Assembly (NCBI RefSeq): GCF_006346395.1
Contig: NZ_VDMS01000001.1
Span: forward strand, 1,054,001-1,118,000
DNA from: Nocardioides plantarum
GTDB lineage: Bacteria; Actinomycetota; Actinomycetes; Propionibacteriales; Nocardioidaceae
Length of the DNA: 64,000 nucleotides
Direction of reading: 5' to 3'
The first letter of the stretch is position 1. Every line of letters starts with the position of its first letter. The notes beneath the pieces are model-generated. The model was given only the letters and a program-made list of their open reading frames with translations. It had not been told where the DNA came from and searched no databases. Below, piece by piece: positions 23,378-37,955 of the stretch. The position numbers were made by a program, and so were the translations under genes.

Positions 23378-25792
23378 TCAGCGGTCGACTACCTTCGTGG
23401 TCGGTGCCGTGGGCGTGATGAGGGTCTTGTAGCCCGGACGGGTACGCACGATCTGGGCCGTCATACGTGCGCCGATGTCGGCGCGCACGAGCTGATAGGT
23501 CAGGGCATAGCTGATGGAGACGATGTGACCGTTGCGTAGCCATCGGACGCGGGTGCGTTCGGGGCTCGGGGTGACGGTCCCCGGGGAGGCTCGGAGGTGC
23601 GATCCGACGCGTGGTGTGCCGCTCACGGTCGGACGCCGGGTCACCCGGAACGAGCCAGGTCCGACAGCTCTAGCCGACGAGACCGCCCGCGCACTGGACC
23701 AGTCGGGTCGGGTGGCGGTCACCCGCACCGTCACCTGTCGCCCGTTGGCTCGAAGCGGCAGCTTGAAGGTACGCCGGTAGGCGCCGGCTACCGGCTGACC
23801 GTGGATGTACCAGCGGTAGCTGTAGCTGAGGTGTCCGGGGGTCCAGCTGCCGGTCAACGCGGTGAGCGTCGAGCCGACACGCGCATGTCCCGTGATCCGC
23901 GGCCGGGATCGGTTCACGATGTCGCCCTCGACCGGCTCGGTCGGTGCCGAGGTGATGCTTCGTGTCCTGTGACCTGGACTCGATGCGGTGACTCGTACGC
24001 GGACGCGGTGGCCGACGACACCCTCACCCGGAGTGAAGGTCGACTTGGTCTCGCCCCCGGCGGGTCGATCGTCGACCAGCCACTGGTAGGTGAAGGTGGC
24101 CGCGTCGGGTGCCCATTCTCCGGGGCTGGCGGTGAGCCGCGACCCCAGCACGGGGTCCCCCGGGACTGATGGTGGGGTCACGTTGACGGTCCGAGGCAGA
24201 GCAGCGTCCGGCGCAGCCGTGCTCCATAGCTCAAGACCGTGGGTGCTGTCGCCGACGGCCAAGAACAAGTTGCCGCCGACGGCCGCGAGCTGGTCGACCT
24301 GCTCGTAGAGCGCTGGACTTCCTCGGCCGTCGGCCCTGTCGCTGACGTCGACGTCCTCGACGATGAACGGAGTCTCCGAGACGGCGTCGGTGCTCCACAG
24401 ACTGCCACCATGGACGTCGTCGCTTCCTACGTAGTAGAGCCGGCCCCCCACCGCGGTGAGCTGTTCGGGCCGTGCACCAGGTAAGACACTCGAGTTGGGA
24501 AGCGGGTTCAAGCTCGTGACCAGCTCCGTTCCGGCCGTCGTGCCATCCGAGCGCCACAGATCGAAACTGACAGCGTCTTGCCGTGCGAAGAAGTAGAGAT
24601 TGCCCCCCATCACCGTTTGGAACCCGGTCGACCGGCTCGGCACCACTGCAGACAGCGGCTGCGTTCCATCCGTGGTGCCGTCAGAGGACCAGAGAACAGG
24701 ATCGCCACCGCTCACGGGGACCCAGAACAACGCGCGGCCACCCAAGGCATTGAGGTTGCGCCCCGCGAGAGACCGGCTCGTGGTGGCGTCGGCGGTGAGG
24801 TGCGTACCCGCGGGGGTGCCGTCGGAGACCCACGTCTCAGGGCCGTGGACCCCGTCGTCCGCCAGGAAAAAGACCTGGTCATCCGCAACCGTGATCTCCC
24901 GAGGGCCAGACGACGCCGGATACCCGCCGCTGTCGACGGCCGGGTTGATGTCAGAAACCATCACGGTCCCGGCGTCGGTGCCATCGGAGCGCCACAACTC
25001 GGTTCCGTGAAGACCGTCGTTCGCGGAGAACCACACTTCGTTCCCCACAGCCACCAGCGATTGAGGGTCTGAGGAGCCCGCGCCCGGCCGCAGGTCCGCC
25101 ACCCGGCGCGTCCCGCCTACGGTCCCGTCGCTTGTCCAGAGCTCGCGGTCGGTCCCGTCGACGTTCGAGTAGCTGAAGAACAATCGGCCACCCACCGCAG
25201 CCAGGTAGGCCGGGGAGCCGCGCCCTCCCCCGTCGACCGCAGGAGTGTTTGTCAACGGCAGCGTTCCTCGAACGGTGCCATCGGTCACGAACAGCTCAGG
25301 ATCCCGCCCCGGGGCTTCAGCGACAAAGAAGCCGAGACCACCCGCTGGCACCACGGCAGACGGACTTCTCACGTTCAAGTCCCAGGTTCCGGCGGCGGTG
25401 CCGTCAGAGCGCCAAAGTTCACGGTAGAGCCGACTTGGAGCCAATACGGAGTACAAGGCTTGACCGCCAAGATCAACGATATCCAGCGGCCTTGATGACG
25501 CCGCTCCGGGAATGGAGTCGGCGACCAAGTCGACGCCAGGAACCCCGTCTACGTGAACAGGTACGCGGTGTGCTGGGAAATCTGTCTGTCCCGGCTCAGC
25601 ACTTGCCTCCGGCGACACCAGGGCTGTGACCACCAGGAGTGCCGCGACAGCGCAACTGGCCGCGAATTGAGCCGCGAGCCGAACCTCCAGATTGCGTACA
25701 CGAATCGAACCGCGGCTCAGACCTCCAATATTCGTGCGAATGGCGGAACTCTCCCATCCTTTGCGGTCACGCCGCGAACACTCGTCAGGCAT
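23378..25792 (-). CDS. Secreted ELWxxDGTxxGT-repeat protein with Ig-like C-terminus
   Basis: About 804 residues. A signal-peptide-like stretch (FAASCAVAALLVVTALVSPEASA) is followed by at least six repeats of the type ELWRSDGTxxGT between about residues 90 and 480 (a beta-propeller-like kelch/hyalin arrangement). Three Ig-like modules of about 90 residues, each with a Tyr-x-Trp or Arg-Trp strand, extend to the end. The start is uncertain: no ATG, GTG or TTG sits directly before the signal peptide, and the nearest in-frame ATG (25792) overlaps the stop of the XRE-TPR gene, giving a 40-residue lead. Surface adhesion or ligand binding is plausible, function unknown. Local GC appears lower than in neighbours, which suggests acquisition. 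Confidence 0.75.
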   Translation of the reverse strand: MPDECSRRDRKGWESSAIRTNIGGLSRGSIRVRNLEVRLAAQFAASCAVAALLVVTALVSPEASAEPGQTDFPAHRVPVHVDGVPGVDLVADSIPGAASSRPLDIVDLGGQALYSVLAPSRLYRELWRSDGTAAGTWDLNVRSPSAVVPAGGLGFFVAEAPGRDPELFVTDGTVRGTLPLTNTPAVDGGGRGSPAYLAAVGGRLFFSYSNVDGTDRELWTSDGTVGGTRRVADLRPGAGSSDPQSLVAVGNEVWFSANDGLHGTELWRSDGTDAGTVMVSDINPAVDSGGYPASSGPREITVADDQVFFLADDGVHGPETWVSDGTPAGTHLTADATTSRSLAGRNLNALGGRALFWVPVSGGDPVLWSSDGTTDGTQPLSAVVPSRSTGFQTVMGGNLYFFARQDAVSFDLWRSDGTTAGTELVTSLNPLPNSSVLPGARPEQLTAVGGRLYYVGSDDVHGGSLWSTDAVSETPFIVEDVDVSDRADGRGSPALYEQVDQLAAVGGNLFLAVGDSTHGLELWSTAAPDAALPRTVNVTPPSVPGDPVLGSRLTASPGEWAPDAATFTYQWLVDDRPAGGETKSTFTPGEGVVGHRVRVRVTASSPGHRTRSITSAPTEPVEGDIVNRSRPRITGHARVGSTLTALTGSWTPGHLSYSYRWYIHGQPVAGAYRRTFKLPLRANGRQVTVRVTATRPDWSSARAVSSARAVGPGSFRVTRRPTVSGTPRVGSHLRASPGTVTPSPERTRVRWLRNGHIVSISYALTYQLVRADIGARMTAQIVRTRPGYKTLITPTAPTTKVVDR

Positions 25793-27158
25793 TCGACCCG
25801 GCTCGCCCCTCCACCACCGCCACCCTGAGGCTCTGGGTCCGCACGTCGAGTCCGGTCGAGGACGCTGCGCGTCGGTAGGCGTCGCGGGCCTGGTCGACCA
25901 GGCCGGCCTCGTCCAGCAGGTTGCCCAGGTCGAACCACATCTGTCCGGCACCGCGATCGGCGCCGATGCCGGTGAGGACCCGGATCGCCTCCACGTAGTG
26001 GGTGCGCGCACCGTCCACGTCACCGCTGCTGGCGGCGACCTGACCGAGCAACGTCAACCCGGCCATCTGGACGAGGGGCAGGTCGCCGGCCATCTCCAGA
26101 GCGCGTTGTGCGTGCTCGCGGGCTCGCTCGGCGTCGTCCTCCATGAAGTGGGCCCGCGCGAGCACGAGCGTGTTGCGGGCGTGGTCGACGGTGTTGGCCG
26201 AGCTCCACTCGAGCTCACGGCCGGCGAGGTCGAGCATCGACTTCGCCTCGTCGATGTGCGGCGGGTCGGCCCTGAGAAGAATGGTGCCCAGCTGGGTCCT
26301 CATCCGAGCTAGGTGGCGCACGCCGTCCTGGCTCTCCAGGAGATGAAGTGCCCGGCGCGCCAGGTCCAGGGCCAGGTCGATGGCGCCCGACTCTGCCTGG
26401 ATGACGCTCATGTTCCAGTACGCCGCGGCACGAGCGGCCGCCGAGTCCAGGTTCTCCGCGACAGCGAGCGCATCGCGACAGATCGCCTGGGCCCCGGCTT
26501 CGTCCCCGGCCTCGAACAGGGCCGCGGCCAGGGTCACCTGCAGCTTGACCGCCTCGTCGATCCCGACCTCGACGGCGCCGGCCACGGCGTCCAGCGTCTG
26601 ACGCGCGATCTCGATGGCACCGGAGAGGTCCCCGGACTCGCGGCGCAGGCTGCTGAGCGCCGTGGCGGCTCTCAACCTCGTCCTGGCCGAGACGTCCTCG
26701 GCGAGCAGCTCCTGGTAGTCGGACTCGGCGGACGGGTCGGCCAGCGCCTCCCGAGCGGTGGCGCTGATCAGTCGTGCGCGTTCGACGACCTCGCTCGAGC
26801 CCAGCGACGCTGCCTCGTCCACGATGGCCCGCGCCGCGGTGAGCGCCTTCTGGGGATTGCCGCCCACCAGATCGAGCTCAGCAAGGTCGACACGCAGCAG
26901 GACGGCACGACCGTCGACAGCATCGGCGCCCACGATGAGGTCGCGAATGGGAACCCGCAGGCGCTCAGCGAACTGGATGAGCACCTTCGTTGCCGGCCGA
27001 CGCTCTCCCCGCTCGATGCGGGAGATGTGCGCCGCGGACACGGAGCCCTCGCCCAGCTCAGGTTGGGTCATACCCGCAGCCACCCGAGCCGTGCGGATGC
27101 GCTCCCCCAGCAGCTTGGGGTCTAGAGCCTCCAGTTGACGCACCAGTTCTCGATCCAT
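25785..27158 (-). CDS. XRE-family regulator with TPR domain
   Basis: A 457-residue protein. An N-terminal helix-turn-helix (LGERIRTARVAAGMTQPELG, then AAHISRIERGERRP) covers about residues 15-70. It is followed by a long alpha-helical array of tetratricopeptide-type repeats, for example MRTQLGTILLRAD and VQMAGLTLLGQVAAS, to the end. This domain plan is that of peptide-sensing regulators of the RRNPP kind (PlcR, Rgg, AimR) and of some developmental regulators of actinobacteria. CACGAT lies six bases before the ATG. It diverges from a 41-codon gene for a secreted pre-peptide, a typical arrangement for a receptor and its signal; this link is inferred. The ELWxxDGT-repeat gene follows with overlap. 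Confidence 0.85.
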   Translation of the reverse strand: MDRELVRQLEALDPKLLGERIRTARVAAGMTQPELGEGSVSAAHISRIERGERRPATKVLIQFAERLRVPIRDLIVGADAVDGRAVLLRVDLAELDLVGGNPQKALTAARAIVDEAASLGSSEVVERARLISATAREALADPSAESDYQELLAEDVSARTRLRAATALSSLRRESGDLSGAIEIARQTLDAVAGAVEVGIDEAVKLQVTLAAALFEAGDEAGAQAICRDALAVAENLDSAAARAAAYWNMSVIQAESGAIDLALDLARRALHLLESQDGVRHLARMRTQLGTILLRADPPHIDEAKSMLDLAGRELEWSSANTVDHARNTLVLARAHFMEDDAERAREHAQRALEMAGDLPLVQMAGLTLLGQVAASSGDVDGARTHYVEAIRVLTGIGADRGAGQMWFDLGNLLDEAGLVDQARDAYRRAASSTGLDVRTQSLRVAVVEGRAGSNA

Positions 27159-27428
27159 CCGCACATCGTGCCCTCTCGGACCTGGCCGCACGGCAAGAAC
27201 TGCTGCAACGCGCTCAAGAGATTTGCCAAGAGGTGTCTCTACACACTCCCCGACGGTCGCCGTCCCAGTCGCGCCGCCGCCGACCGGCCGACTTCGACGA
27301 GAGGGCCTTCAGCGACTCATCTGACCCACTAATTAACACGCGTCACAAATTGACATGATTTAGCACGTTTTGAACTTGTCATTGCTTGACTCCGGGCGTC
27401 CATTCCCACGAACCCCGGAGCCACAGCC
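27159..27428. promoter_or_regulatory. AT-rich divergent promoter region between regulator and pre-peptide
   Basis: This 270-base gap contains an AT-rich island (about 27328-27382) unusual for the window. It includes TTGACA at 27350-27355 and an inverted repeat TGACA (27351-27355)/TGTCA (27377-27381). A -35-like element is therefore present, but no convincing -10 was found at standard spacing. It is the likely binding site of the XRE-TPR regulator. Confidence 0.4.
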
Positions 27429-27554
27429 ATGTCCCAGCCCACTCGCTACCTCGTCGCCACCGTCGCCCTCCTCCTCAGCGTGGTCACCGCTGCCGTCGTC
27501 TCCACCCCTGAGCCAGCGCCGGCCCAGGCGAACGACCGCACCTGGTGCTGTTGA
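27429..27554 (+). CDS. Short secreted pre-peptide, putative signalling peptide
   Basis: A 41-codon gene preceded by GGAG eight bases before the ATG. The product has a basic n-region (MSQPTRY), a hydrophobic core (LVATVALLLSVVTAAVV) and a Pro/Glu-rich c-region ending AlaGlnAla. Cleavage there by signal peptidase would leave only seven residues, NDRTWCC. A whole product consisting of an export signal plus a C-terminal heptapeptide is the design of PapR-type pheromones. It diverges from the XRE-TPR regulator gene. Coding status rests on the ribosome site, the signal peptide and context; there is no family to compare. A Cys-Cys end could allow a disulfide or ring. Confidence 0.6.
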   Translation: MSQPTRYLVATVALLLSVVTAAVVSTPEPAPAQANDRTWCC

Positions 27555-29571: not shown

Positions 29572-30018
29572 ATGACGATCCCGAGGAGCAGCCCGTGCCC
29601 GTGGCGTGGGTTGAGCGACGGCCAGACCCTCGACCACCTCGGCGTCGAGGAGTGCTGGAGGCTCCTGGGGTCTCAGTCGTTCGGCCGCCTCTCGTTCAGC
29701 GTCGACGACCGGGTGCAGGTCGCCCTGACGCCGTACGTCGCCCGCACCAGCCGGGTCTTCCTCCGCGCGGCCGCCTTCGGGTCGGTCGCGCGTCGTGTGG
29801 TGACGCGACCCGTCACCCTCCAGATCGACGACCTGAGCGGTGACCACCACGCCACGTGGTCCGTGACCGCCACCGGCACGGCTCACCACGTCGACGACGC
29901 GGCCACCCTGGCGGCCCTGTGGACCCCCGTCCGCCCCGCACCGTGGGGTGTCGGGCAGGAGTCGCTCTGGATCGAGCTACTACCGGACGAGGTCCACGGG
30001 CAGCGCATCCGCGACTGA
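29572..30018 (+). CDS. Pyridoxamine-5'-phosphate-oxidase-fold flavoprotein
   Basis: A 148-residue split-barrel protein. ECWRLLGSQSFGRLSFSVDDRVQVALTPY-type strands lie at about residues 28-55 and the second barrel half is in RPVTLQIDDLSGDHHATWSV. A similar PPOX-fold protein is part of the DosR hypoxia regulon of M. tuberculosis. A DosR-like box at the right distance and a DosR-like regulator gene 1.1 kb downstream support the same control here. Flavin or related cofactor binding is likely, reaction unknown. It converges with carbamate kinase, 21 bases apart. Confidence 0.82.
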   Translation: MTIPRSSPCPWRGLSDGQTLDHLGVEECWRLLGSQSFGRLSFSVDDRVQVALTPYVARTSRVFLRAAAFGSVARRVVTRPVTLQIDDLSGDHHATWSVTATGTAHHVDDAATLAALWTPVRPAPWGVGQESLWIELLPDEVHGQRIRD

Positions 30019-36362: not shown

Positions 36363-37955
36363 ATGAAGCTGACCACCGCCGCCCTCGGCCTGTGCGTCAC
36401 CACCGTCGTCCTGGCCGGCTGCGGCGGAGGAGGGTCGGGCTCCTCCTCGGGCGGCGGAGGCGAGGTGGTCGACGGCGGCACGTTCACCATGTCGCTGGCC
36501 TCCGACCCCGGCAACCTCGACCCGCAGATGGGCGCCGGGAGCGGCCTGTTCGCGACGACCCAGTTCGGCTACGACGCCCTGCTCAGCGTCAACGCGAAGG
36601 GTGAGATCGAGTCGGGCCTGGCGACCACGTGGTCCGCCGAGGGCACCAAGGTCGAGCTGACGCTCGGCGACGGCATCACCTGCTCCGACGGGACGGCGTT
36701 CACGCCCAGCGCCGCGGCCGACAACGTCAACTTCGTGGCCGACCCCGCCAACCAGAGCCCGCTCCTCGGGACCTTCCTGCCCGCCGGGGCCAAGGCGACC
36801 GGCGACGACGCGGCCGGCACGGTGTCCATCACGCTCACCACCCCGGCGCCCTTCGTGCTCAACGGCCTGGCCAGCCTGCCCATGGTCTGTCCTGGCGGCC
36901 TGGACGACCGCAAGTCCCTCGCGCAGGCCACCAACGGCACCGGCCCCTACGAGCTGACCGACGCCAAGCCCGGCGAGAGCTACACCTTCAAGATCCGCGA
37001 GGGCTACACCTGGGGTCCGAACGGTGCCTCCACCGACGTCAAGGGGATGCCCGACACGGTGGTCCTCAAGATCACCGAGAACGAGACCACGGCCGCCAAC
37101 CTGCTGCTGTCCGGTGAGCTCAACGCCGCCCAGATCGTGGGCCCGGACGCCAAGCGCCTCGAGGGTGCCGGCCTCTTCACCGCCAAGACCCCCGCCCTGG
37201 TCGGAGAGCAGTGGTACAACCAGGCCGCGGGTCGACCCACCGCGGACCCGAAGGTCCGCATCGCCCTCACCCGGGCACTCGACCTCGGTGAGCTGCAGAA
37301 GGTCCTCACCTCGGGCACCGGCGGCCCGGCGACCACGCTGGCCGCGGTCGAGCCCACCACCTGCCCGGGCGACTCGGTGTCCGGTTCCGTGCCGTCGTAC
37401 GACGCCGACGCGGCCGGGACGCTCCTCGACGAGGCCGGCTGGACCCTCGGCGAGGACGGCACGCGCACCAAGGACGGCAAGCCGCTCGAGCTGGTGCTGC
37501 TCTACCAGGCCAGCTCCGGGACCGGCGGCGCCGCGGCCACCGAGCTCGCCGTCCAGCAGTGGAAGAAGGTCGGCGTGAAGGTGACGGCGAAGAGCCAGAA
37601 CGAGACCACCCTGACCGGGACCATCTTCAGCGGCGGTGACTGGGACGTCTCGTGGGTCTCCCTCAACGTCAACGCCCCCGACCAGCTGGTGCCGTTCCTC
37701 TCCGGGGCCAAGGCACCCGACGGGACCAACTTCGCCGGCATCGACAACGCCGACTACCAGGCGGGGCTGGCCGAGGCGTCGAAGACGCAGGGGGTCGAGG
37801 GGTGCGACGCGTGGCTCGCCGCCGAGTCGGCGCTGCTGAAGTCCGCCGACGTCGTCCCCTTCGCCAACAACATCGTGCGCACGTTCGGCGCCGGCGCGGA
37901 GTTCACGACGCCGGGCAACCTGGTGCCGACCAGCATCCGCATGATGGCGAAGTAG
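36363..37955 (+). CDS. Peptide ABC transporter, lipoprotein binding protein
   Basis: A 530-residue family 5 solute-binding protein. The lipobox LAGC (Cys at about residue 20) is followed by a Gly/Ser-rich tether. The domain starts TFTMSLASDPGNLDPQ, and the later segment VRIALTRALDLGELQKVL is typical of DppA/OppA proteins. ATG 36363 is used; a TTG two codons upstream is in frame. It delivers di- or oligopeptides to the permeases that follow with gaps of 7 and 1 bases. Confidence 0.92.
   Translation: MKLTTAALGLCVTTVVLAGCGGGGSGSSSGGGGEVVDGGTFTMSLASDPGNLDPQMGAGSGLFATTQFGYDALLSVNAKGEIESGLATTWSAEGTKVELTLGDGITCSDGTAFTPSAAADNVNFVADPANQSPLLGTFLPAGAKATGDDAAGTVSITLTTPAPFVLNGLASLPMVCPGGLDDRKSLAQATNGTGPYELTDAKPGESYTFKIREGYTWGPNGASTDVKGMPDTVVLKITENETTAANLLLSGELNAAQIVGPDAKRLEGAGLFTAKTPALVGEQWYNQAAGRPTADPKVRIALTRALDLGELQKVLTSGTGGPATTLAAVEPTTCPGDSVSGSVPSYDADAAGTLLDEAGWTLGEDGTRTKDGKPLELVLLYQASSGTGGAAATELAVQQWKKVGVKVTAKSQNETTLTGTIFSGGDWDVSWVSLNVNAPDQLVPFLSGAKAPDGTNFAGIDNADYQAGLAEASKTQGVEGCDAWLAAESALLKSADVVPFANNIVRTFGAGAEFTTPGNLVPTSIRMMAK

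Follow-up and report, generated by a model that had tools for sequence, protein, structure and literature searches.

A recurrent two-gene module of an XRE-TPR regulator and a Cys-Cys-ended mini-peptide in Nocardioides and other actinobacteria: a likely RRNPP-like signalling pair

The locus in Nocardioides plantarum

We analysed 64,000 nucleotides of the Nocardioides plantarum genome (contig NZ_VDMS01000001.1, positions 1,054,001 to 1,118,000; the window), in which the gene for an XRE-family regulator with TPRs is divergent from a mini-gene of 41 codons. A preliminary description, made from the sequence alone, had proposed the two as a possible peptide signalling pair, and both frames were found where it had placed them. 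The regulator frame begins with an ATG at 27158 and its stop ends at 25785, giving 457 residues; the mini-gene also starts with ATG and its product is MSQPTRYLVATVALLLSVVTAAVVSTPEPAPAQANDRTWCC. The gap between them (27159–27428) is 270 bases long. It had been called AT-rich; its GC (guanine plus cytosine) content is 60% overall and 45% at 27318–27400, compared with 73% for the window. The features discussed below are as follows, with their basis in brackets.

25785..27158, minus strand: XRE-TPR regulator, proposed intracellular peptide receptor and transcription factor (open frame, Pfam, structure model)
26931..27119, minus strand: N-terminal helix-turn-helix (HTH), approximately residues 14–76 (Pfam HTH_3 at 21–74; helices at 14–76 in the model)
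25857..26927, minus strand: TPR superhelix, approximately residues 78–434, 18 helices, proposed peptide-binding domain (Pfam TPR matches; helices in the model; aligned with NprR and Rap chains over about 78–437)
27223..27229, no strand: TTGCCAA palindrome, operator-like, about 65 bases upstream of the regulator ATG (sequence; motif enrichment)
27350..27355, plus strand: TTGACA, operator-like or -35-like, containing the left arm of a TGACA/TGTCA dyad (motif enrichment)
27376..27381, plus strand: TTGTCA, operator-like, containing the right arm of that dyad (motif enrichment)
27386..27391, plus strand: TTGACT, operator-like or -35-like (motif enrichment)
27417..27420, plus strand: GGAG, probable ribosome-binding core (read from the sequence)
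27429..27554, plus strand: secretory-looking mini-gene of 41 codons ending Trp-Cys-Cys (open frame; family conservation; family dN/dS of 0.36)
27429..27530, plus strand: predicted Sec signal peptide, residues 1–34, ending Ala-Gln-Ala (hydrophobic segment and Ala-x-Ala (AxA) site read from the sequence; family features)
27531..27551, plus strand: predicted mature heptapeptide NDRTWCC (NDRSWCC follows AxA in the related locus L064)

The GC content of the mini-gene by codon position is 0.66/0.59/0.88, like that of a coding frame, and it is the sole frame of its kind on either strand of the window (28–70 residues, a hydrophobic N-terminal part, and Cys-Cys no more than two residues from the end). 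The good ribosome site previously attributed to it is present, 8 bases before the ATG, but is fair rather than strong. The TGACA/TGTCA dyad reported for the gap is present, at 27351–27355 and 27377–27381. The product does end in Ala-Gln-Ala followed by NDRTWCC, and the pattern NDRxWCC after AxA is kept at L064, the locus of the closest regulator relative among the genomes searched. A Pfam scan of this mini-peptide gave no match; in an NCBIfam scan of 47 mini-peptides, no more than two of the 47 matched any one model (best E-value 0.0013) and none exceeded a cut-off. Public records, where they name such a mini-peptide at all, call it a hypothetical protein.

Recurrence beside related regulators

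The regulator was searched against 118 genomes of the genus, and all 63 matches, down to an E-value of 1.4e-52, were taken with about 1.5 kb on either side where the contig allowed (one has less upstream). The frame rule applied to them, the same as that given above for the window, was set after the first examples were known. A frame fitting this rule lies beside 56 of the 63 related regulators, and none was found at the other seven (L028, L032, L039, L044, L047, L056 and L058). There are 64 such frames in the 270,691 bases of the 63 loci, as against none in the reversed sequence and none or one in each of ten second-order Markov shuffles. The mini-gene lies convergently behind the regulator at 50 of the 56 loci and is divergent in the window, L002, L004, L005, L031 and L057; at six of the 56 it is present in two or three copies.

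We also scanned the same 118 genomes with a profile built from the 47 mini-peptides, ignoring the location of the regulators. This gave 119 matches at E-values of 0.001 or less, of which 62 extend to the last model position and thus to the cysteines. None of the 62 is more than 787 bases from a regulator, the median distance being 60.5 bases, and 54 of the 63 regulators have at least one. The remaining 57 matches end before the cysteines, and 54 of these fall in open frames of more than 100 codons. Because the profile was built from regulator-linked frames, and because 63 of approximately 140–360 first-look candidates per genome were scored so that weak peptides may be missed, the scan gauges positional specificity rather than the total number of peptides. 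The refuting condition named in the preliminary description, the lack of a conserved short frame beside orthologous regulators, was not borne out: a frame ending in Cys-Cys accompanies most of the regulators within the genus and most of those in the sets of 51, 40 and 80 loci described next.

Spread and geometry across actinobacteria

At an E-value of 1e-20 the regulator is present in 37 of 149 genomes of the family, 26 of 196 of the order and 55 of 345 of the class, in samples that overlap. The strict frame lies beside 41 of 51 further loci, and beside 26 of 40 additional loci, a hand-chosen subset of the remaining matches that includes arrays matching the TPR part only. Among 80 named loci (the sets of 51, 40 and 80 share some genomes), the strict frame is found within 1.5 kb at 59 and at 1,760 bases in one; at a further nine, four to six residues follow the Cys-Cys, and eleven have neither. 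The named genera with the pair are Nocardioides, Marmoricola, Pimelobacter (a metagenome-assembled genome), Jiangella, Phytoactinopolyspora, Haloactinopolyspora, Cellulomonas, Actinotalea, Streptomyces and Nonomuraea. The geometry differs between groups: the mini-gene is divergent and 65–78 bases from the regulator in Jiangella and its relatives, divergent and 25–38 bases away in a Nonomuraea-resembling family (f20), and upstream of the regulator on the same strand in Cellulomonas. The pairing is kept while the orientation varies, which speaks for the two products being linked in function.

A phylum-wide search gave 29 loci, 24 outside the class and five within it, a rough count in that the regulators of L236 and L257 were misplaced. 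At the 24 loci outside the class, three frames end in Cys-Cys and 11 others are short signal-like frames with tails such as NWPHH or GWPKH; no such short frame was found at the remaining 15 of the 29, including the five from the same class. Since few loci outside the class have the Cys-Cys end, it marks mainly a class-level family, and deeper relatives of the regulator may use other peptide ends.

Several variants of the arrangement were seen. Outside the class, L237, L239, L241–L243, L249–L252, L260 and L261 have signal-like frames of 28–35 residues divergent from the regulator, with tails such as NWPHH, GWPKH and PWPHCC, which perhaps represent an older Trp-Pro type of peptide. At L117, L118, L126, L127 and L131 (f20, probably Streptosporangiaceae), a divergent signal-like frame 24–26 bases away has a cysteine-free tail, for example FGWNHPG. 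At L103, L110, L111, L114 and L233, of the Jiangella type, a second mini-gene behind the regulator ends in GGSDFCC or similar and accompanies the divergent one, giving two peptides per receptor. L135, L136 and L137 (G173:C11, G086:C2 and G094:C3) are tandem arrays of regulator paralogues, several of which match the TPR part only, in a Rap-like manner; a Cys-Cys mini-gene is present in two of these three stretches.

The mini-peptide family

The anatomy of the peptides was examined in a set of 138, one per non-redundant regulator, chosen for a hydrophobic core and Cys-Cys. Lys or Arg occurs within residues 2–9 in 128 of the 138, an AxA site in 105 and a lipobox in none. The end is exactly Cys-Cys in 113, and Trp precedes the Cys-Cys in 65. 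Among the 105 peptides that contain AxA, the median tail after the last such site is 13 residues long. Overall length has a median of 42 residues and a range of 29–75, under a length filter of 28–78. In an alignment of 47 peptides the two cysteines are the only invariant columns besides the start Met, although members had been selected for their Cys-Cys end. Over all members, conservation is lower in the eight residues preceding Cys-Cys than in the first 24, and this holds for every identity bin.

The pooled ratio of nonsynonymous to synonymous substitution (dN/dS) of the mini-genes is 0.36, from 28 close pairs at different loci. These pairs were filtered on DNA identity; a filter on protein identity gave 0.31, which is biased downward. 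The regulator of L064 is the closest among the genomes searched, at 48% identity; proteins up to 53% identical are found, as protein sequences, in a larger database. The L064 precursor ends in ASANDRSWCC where that of the window ends in AQANDRTWCC: the last seven residues are identical at six of seven positions and the rest at nine of 34. The window's genome holds three regulator/peptide pairs, and their tails differ (NDRTWCC, SDPHWCCG and RDNSQWCC). A comparison of distance matrices for receptor–peptide coevolution gave a weak signal that was not domain-specific, and it is therefore not used as support.

Operator-like sites

Among six-letter words in 139 non-redundant upstream regions, enrichment is strongest for TTGACA (in 49 regions against 7.7 expected) and TTGCCA (47 against 7.8). 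TTGACT is found upstream of peptide genes in 37 regions, compared with 7.2 expected. Sites of the form TTG[ACG]C number 310, against a mean of 114 and a maximum of 133 in shuffled sequence, and palindromes of the form TTG[CG]CAA occur 32 times in the same 139 regions. The two promoters can be told apart at 71 loci, where the mini-gene lies behind the regulator. Upstream of the peptide gene these loci have 106 copies of TTG[CGT]CA, where shuffles have 14.7 and at most 25; upstream of the regulator they have 35, where shuffles have 10.6 and at most 20. The motif count inside the regulator is zero, which is a weak control as this is one homologous coding stretch. We infer that the regulator binds these TTGNCA-type sites at both promoters. 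The spacings between sites peak at 23, 10, 13, 12, 31 and 41 bases, which are not clean multiples of a helical turn, and no helical phasing is claimed.

The regulator

The HTH-plus-TPR plan previously given for the regulator was confirmed by Pfam: a scan lists HTH- and TPR-type models, with HTH_3 (residues 21–74) and TPR_12 over their cut-offs. The 63 relatives within the genus span 450–487 residues, and public records label relatives as TPR, HTH or XRE-family proteins. The structure was predicted from an alignment of 58 of 78 listed relatives, with a predicted local distance difference test score (pLDDT) of 92.8 and a predicted template modelling score (pTM) of 0.80. Within the structural families in the list of matches returned, the predicted fold resembles NprR and Rap, at 9–14% identity over the aligned parts, but eukaryotic TPR proteins score higher. 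When a profile of the regulator was compared with PDB sequences, PlcR was the best natural match (E-value 2.4e-14, positions 13–217). In an NCBIfam scan of the regulators no model exceeded its cut-off, and none of the names Rap, Rgg, NprR, PlcR, PrgX, AimR or ComR was listed. We call the pair RRNPP-like and place it in no named subfamily.

Genomic neighbourhood

Genes were predicted in flanks of approximately 4 kb at 81 loci, with neighbours compared as families and without a domain scan. The regulator family itself is found at 78 of the 81, and no other gene family occurs at more than 15. The next most common neighbours are one family at 15 loci, all Nocardioides, and one at 12 loci, in two Frankiales genomes and relatives of Jiangella, that by eye looks phosphatase-like. 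Downstream of the mini-gene, the next predicted gene faces the other way at 53 of 67 loci. At 12 it has the same orientation and lies within 300 bases, and at two it is co-oriented but farther away. Of the 12 close cases, L227 has an unrelated frame of 495 residues, and the other 11 are of regulator length, six of them confirmed as regulators. In the window, the first co-oriented downstream gene with a Pfam match starts near 29572.

At 23378–25792 the window encodes a secreted-looking protein with ELWxSDGT repeats, whose ATG at 25792 gives an 8-base overlap with the 3' end of the regulator gene. The overlap is real, and the two genes are possibly co-transcribed. The preliminary description had suggested this protein as an output of the pair, a suggestion that found no support: it had no tblastn match at any of 233 other loci (flanks of roughly 1.5 or 4 kb, in some cases less), and the gene is outside the conserved module. 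The window's genome also encodes three SBP_bac_5 proteins; one, an oligopeptide-binding protein at window positions 36603–37685, is about 9 kb from the pair, and another is about 16 kb from the third pair of the genome (G000:C4).

In one Nocardioides clade (L164, L178, L179, L205 and relatives) the pair lies amid what appear by eye to be sulphur-assimilation genes, CysN-like and thiosulphate sulphurtransferase-like. On plasmid pADI95-16a of Streptomyces sp. ADI95-16 (L265:7530-8037), the regulator is followed by a secretory-looking protein of 71 residues ending in DIPLCC and by a second small protein. This pair adjoins a P450 gene and, on the opposite strand, the gene for a BTAD-domain regulator, and may control a biosynthetic cluster. 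Twelve plasmid records were found in a check for mobile elements, 11 from Streptomyces and one Nonomuraea record of chromosome size. In addition, MT836207.1 (L266), labelled 'Bacteriophage sp.', has a regulator fragment of 43% identity beside a bacterial-looking sugar transferase frame, and is probably a bacterial contig. The 12 plasmid records and this one doubtful phage-labelled contig make no case for a mobile origin of the pair.

Proposed function and alternative explanations

There are two open frames, paired again and again, with a common Cys-Cys end on the peptide and a crowding of TTGNCA-type sites at the peptide promoters. We propose, with a probability of roughly 0.68, that they form a two-gene module recurring across actinobacteria and working in peptide signalling of an RRNPP-like kind. 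The steps, from export and processing to re-import, binding and regulation, would be these. Sec would export the precursor, and cleavage behind Ala-Gln-Ala would release NDRTWCC, which would re-enter the cell through an oligopeptide permease (Opp; the genome has the three SBP_bac_5 proteins noted above) and bind the concave face of the TPR superhelix. Binding would alter the seating of the HTH on the TTGNCA sites, and as these would control both the peptide gene and the regulator itself, a feedback loop would result. Signal specificity for each receptor would come from the variable residues ahead of the Cys-Cys; the cysteine pair itself could serve as a handle common to the peptides, either for recognition or for redox. 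The preliminary reading as a possible peptide signalling pair is supported, with the signalling function itself a proposal.

A different role for the peptide, as an antimicrobial or kin-competition peptide or a small toxin whose expression is controlled by an XRE-TPR protein that does not sense it, would agree with a small, secretory-looking, cysteine-bearing product that is variable before the cysteines and sometimes present in two or three tandem copies. The sites at the peptide promoter are also compatible with simple repression. We nevertheless consider this unlikely: apart from the regulator, every gene family is confined to 15 or fewer of the 81 loci, so that no common immunity or export gene shows, the predicted mature tails are short (median 13 residues), and a simple repressor needs no TPR superhelix with an RRNPP-like fold. 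The regulator might instead sense the precursor inside the cell, and so monitor Sec export or the thiol redox state rather than a peptide from outside. The signal peptide does link the precursor to export, and two cysteines invariant in the (Cys-Cys-selected) alignment would suit a redox reporter, but a general stress sensor would not be expected to have variable residues before Cys-Cys or different tails in three paralogous pairs of one genome, and some deeper relatives have signal-like frames without cysteine; we regard this explanation as improbable.

Many ribosomally synthesised and post-translationally modified peptides (RiPPs) have a short C-terminal stretch with conserved residues, as these peptides do. 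It is nonetheless very improbable that the mini-gene is a RiPP precursor with its enzymes elsewhere and the XRE-TPR protein as its regulator or receptor, given the Sec-type leader with AxA in 105 of 138 and the lack of any other family at more than 15 of the 81 loci, whose neighbours had no scan for RiPP enzyme domains. Polycysteine leaders exist in mycobacteria, and the tandem cysteine codons at the end of the mini-gene recall a cis-acting leader or attenuator, for example a cysteine-responsive one, or an arrest peptide acting on the following gene. This is scarcely credible, and cysteine attenuation is rejected, because the next downstream gene is mostly on the opposite strand (53 of 67 loci); in the window, one has to go as far as about 29572 for the start of a co-oriented gene that matches Pfam.

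The signalling pair that we prefer can also be extended into a more speculative proposal. It could belong to an ancient, phylum-wide Actinomycetota superfamily of peptide quorum sensing, built of XRE-TPR receptors and mini-pheromones and missed by surveys confined to Firmicutes. The C-terminal Cys-Cys would form a vicinal disulfide, closed outside the cell and open inside, so that the receptor would read peptide that had truly passed through the medium; the variable residues would provide dozens of private signals, and on Streptomyces plasmids the system would control biosynthetic clusters. We offer this tentatively, as a possibility on the doubtful side.

A receptor–peptide module spread over the ten named genera would give these bacteria, antibiotic producers included, genetically encoded and cheaply synthesised candidate signals. 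Since each locus predicts both a peptide and a receptor, intracellular peptide signalling in actinobacteria becomes a directly testable question.

Comparison with known systems

No description of the pair or of its Cys-Cys signature was found in the titles and abstract openings of the open-access PMC literature, a scope that leaves preprints and most subscription papers outside. The RRNPP surveys PMC10075063 and PMC9765709, in the parts drawn on here, covered Firmicutes and in one case also viruses, and one of them describes actinobacterial signals as typically enzyme-made small molecules. The consulted portion of a review of actinobacterial quorum sensing (PMC4748050) treats cyclic or modified peptides in general and mentions no such pair.

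Five criteria for RRNPP systems are set out in the relevant part of PMC10075063: a small propeptide (10–100 residues in the software of that paper), Sec export as judged by SignalP, a receptor of about 250–500 residues, TPRs, and adjacent genes. Three of these describe the present pair: the propeptide has 41 residues, the receptor has 457, and the genes are neighbours, divergent and 270 bases apart, with all 62 cysteine-reaching profile matches near a regulator. The TPR criterion applies in part, as TPRs are present with a predicted NprR/Rap-like fold and peptide recognition is only predicted. Sec export is likewise predicted, from Lys/Arg in 128 of 138, AxA in 105 of 138 and the lack of a lipobox, the hydrophobic core having been a selection criterion. 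The excerpt used of PMC11343458 gives RRNPP propeptides as typically 50–120 residues, so that the 41 residues in the window are shorter, and states that a mature peptide of 5–10 residues re-enters via Opp and alters receptor activity. The heptapeptide predicted in the window falls within 5–10 residues, but the median tail of the family, 13 residues after the last AxA, does not.

Among individual systems, PlcR/PapR of the Bacillus cereus group is similar in having a receptor composed of HTH and TPRs. Next to the receptor gene it has one for a small secreted precursor that carries the signal close to its C-terminus. It differs in belonging to another phylum and in its PlcR chain of 293 residues, compared with 457 residues and 18 helices after the HTH here; in addition, our mini-genes are mostly convergent or divergent and have a C-terminal Cys-Cys. 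NprR/NprX and Rap/Phr of Bacillus are distant, at 9–14% identity over the aligned parts. We know of no Cys-Cys pheromone for either. Rap has no HTH, according to the part of PMC9765709 used here. The regulator has a weak match to the NsdA-family TPR regulators (NCBIfam NF053720), at 31.2 bits far under the 75-bit cut-off. To our knowledge that family has no peptide partner. Rgg/SHP of Streptococcus resembles our pair in that the gene of a small peptide adjoins that of an HTH regulator, either divergently or convergently, though its peptides have, as far as we know, no Cys-Cys end. SHPs also differ in their export, for which Sec is not predicted and PptAB is used (PMC10075063, in the section cited).
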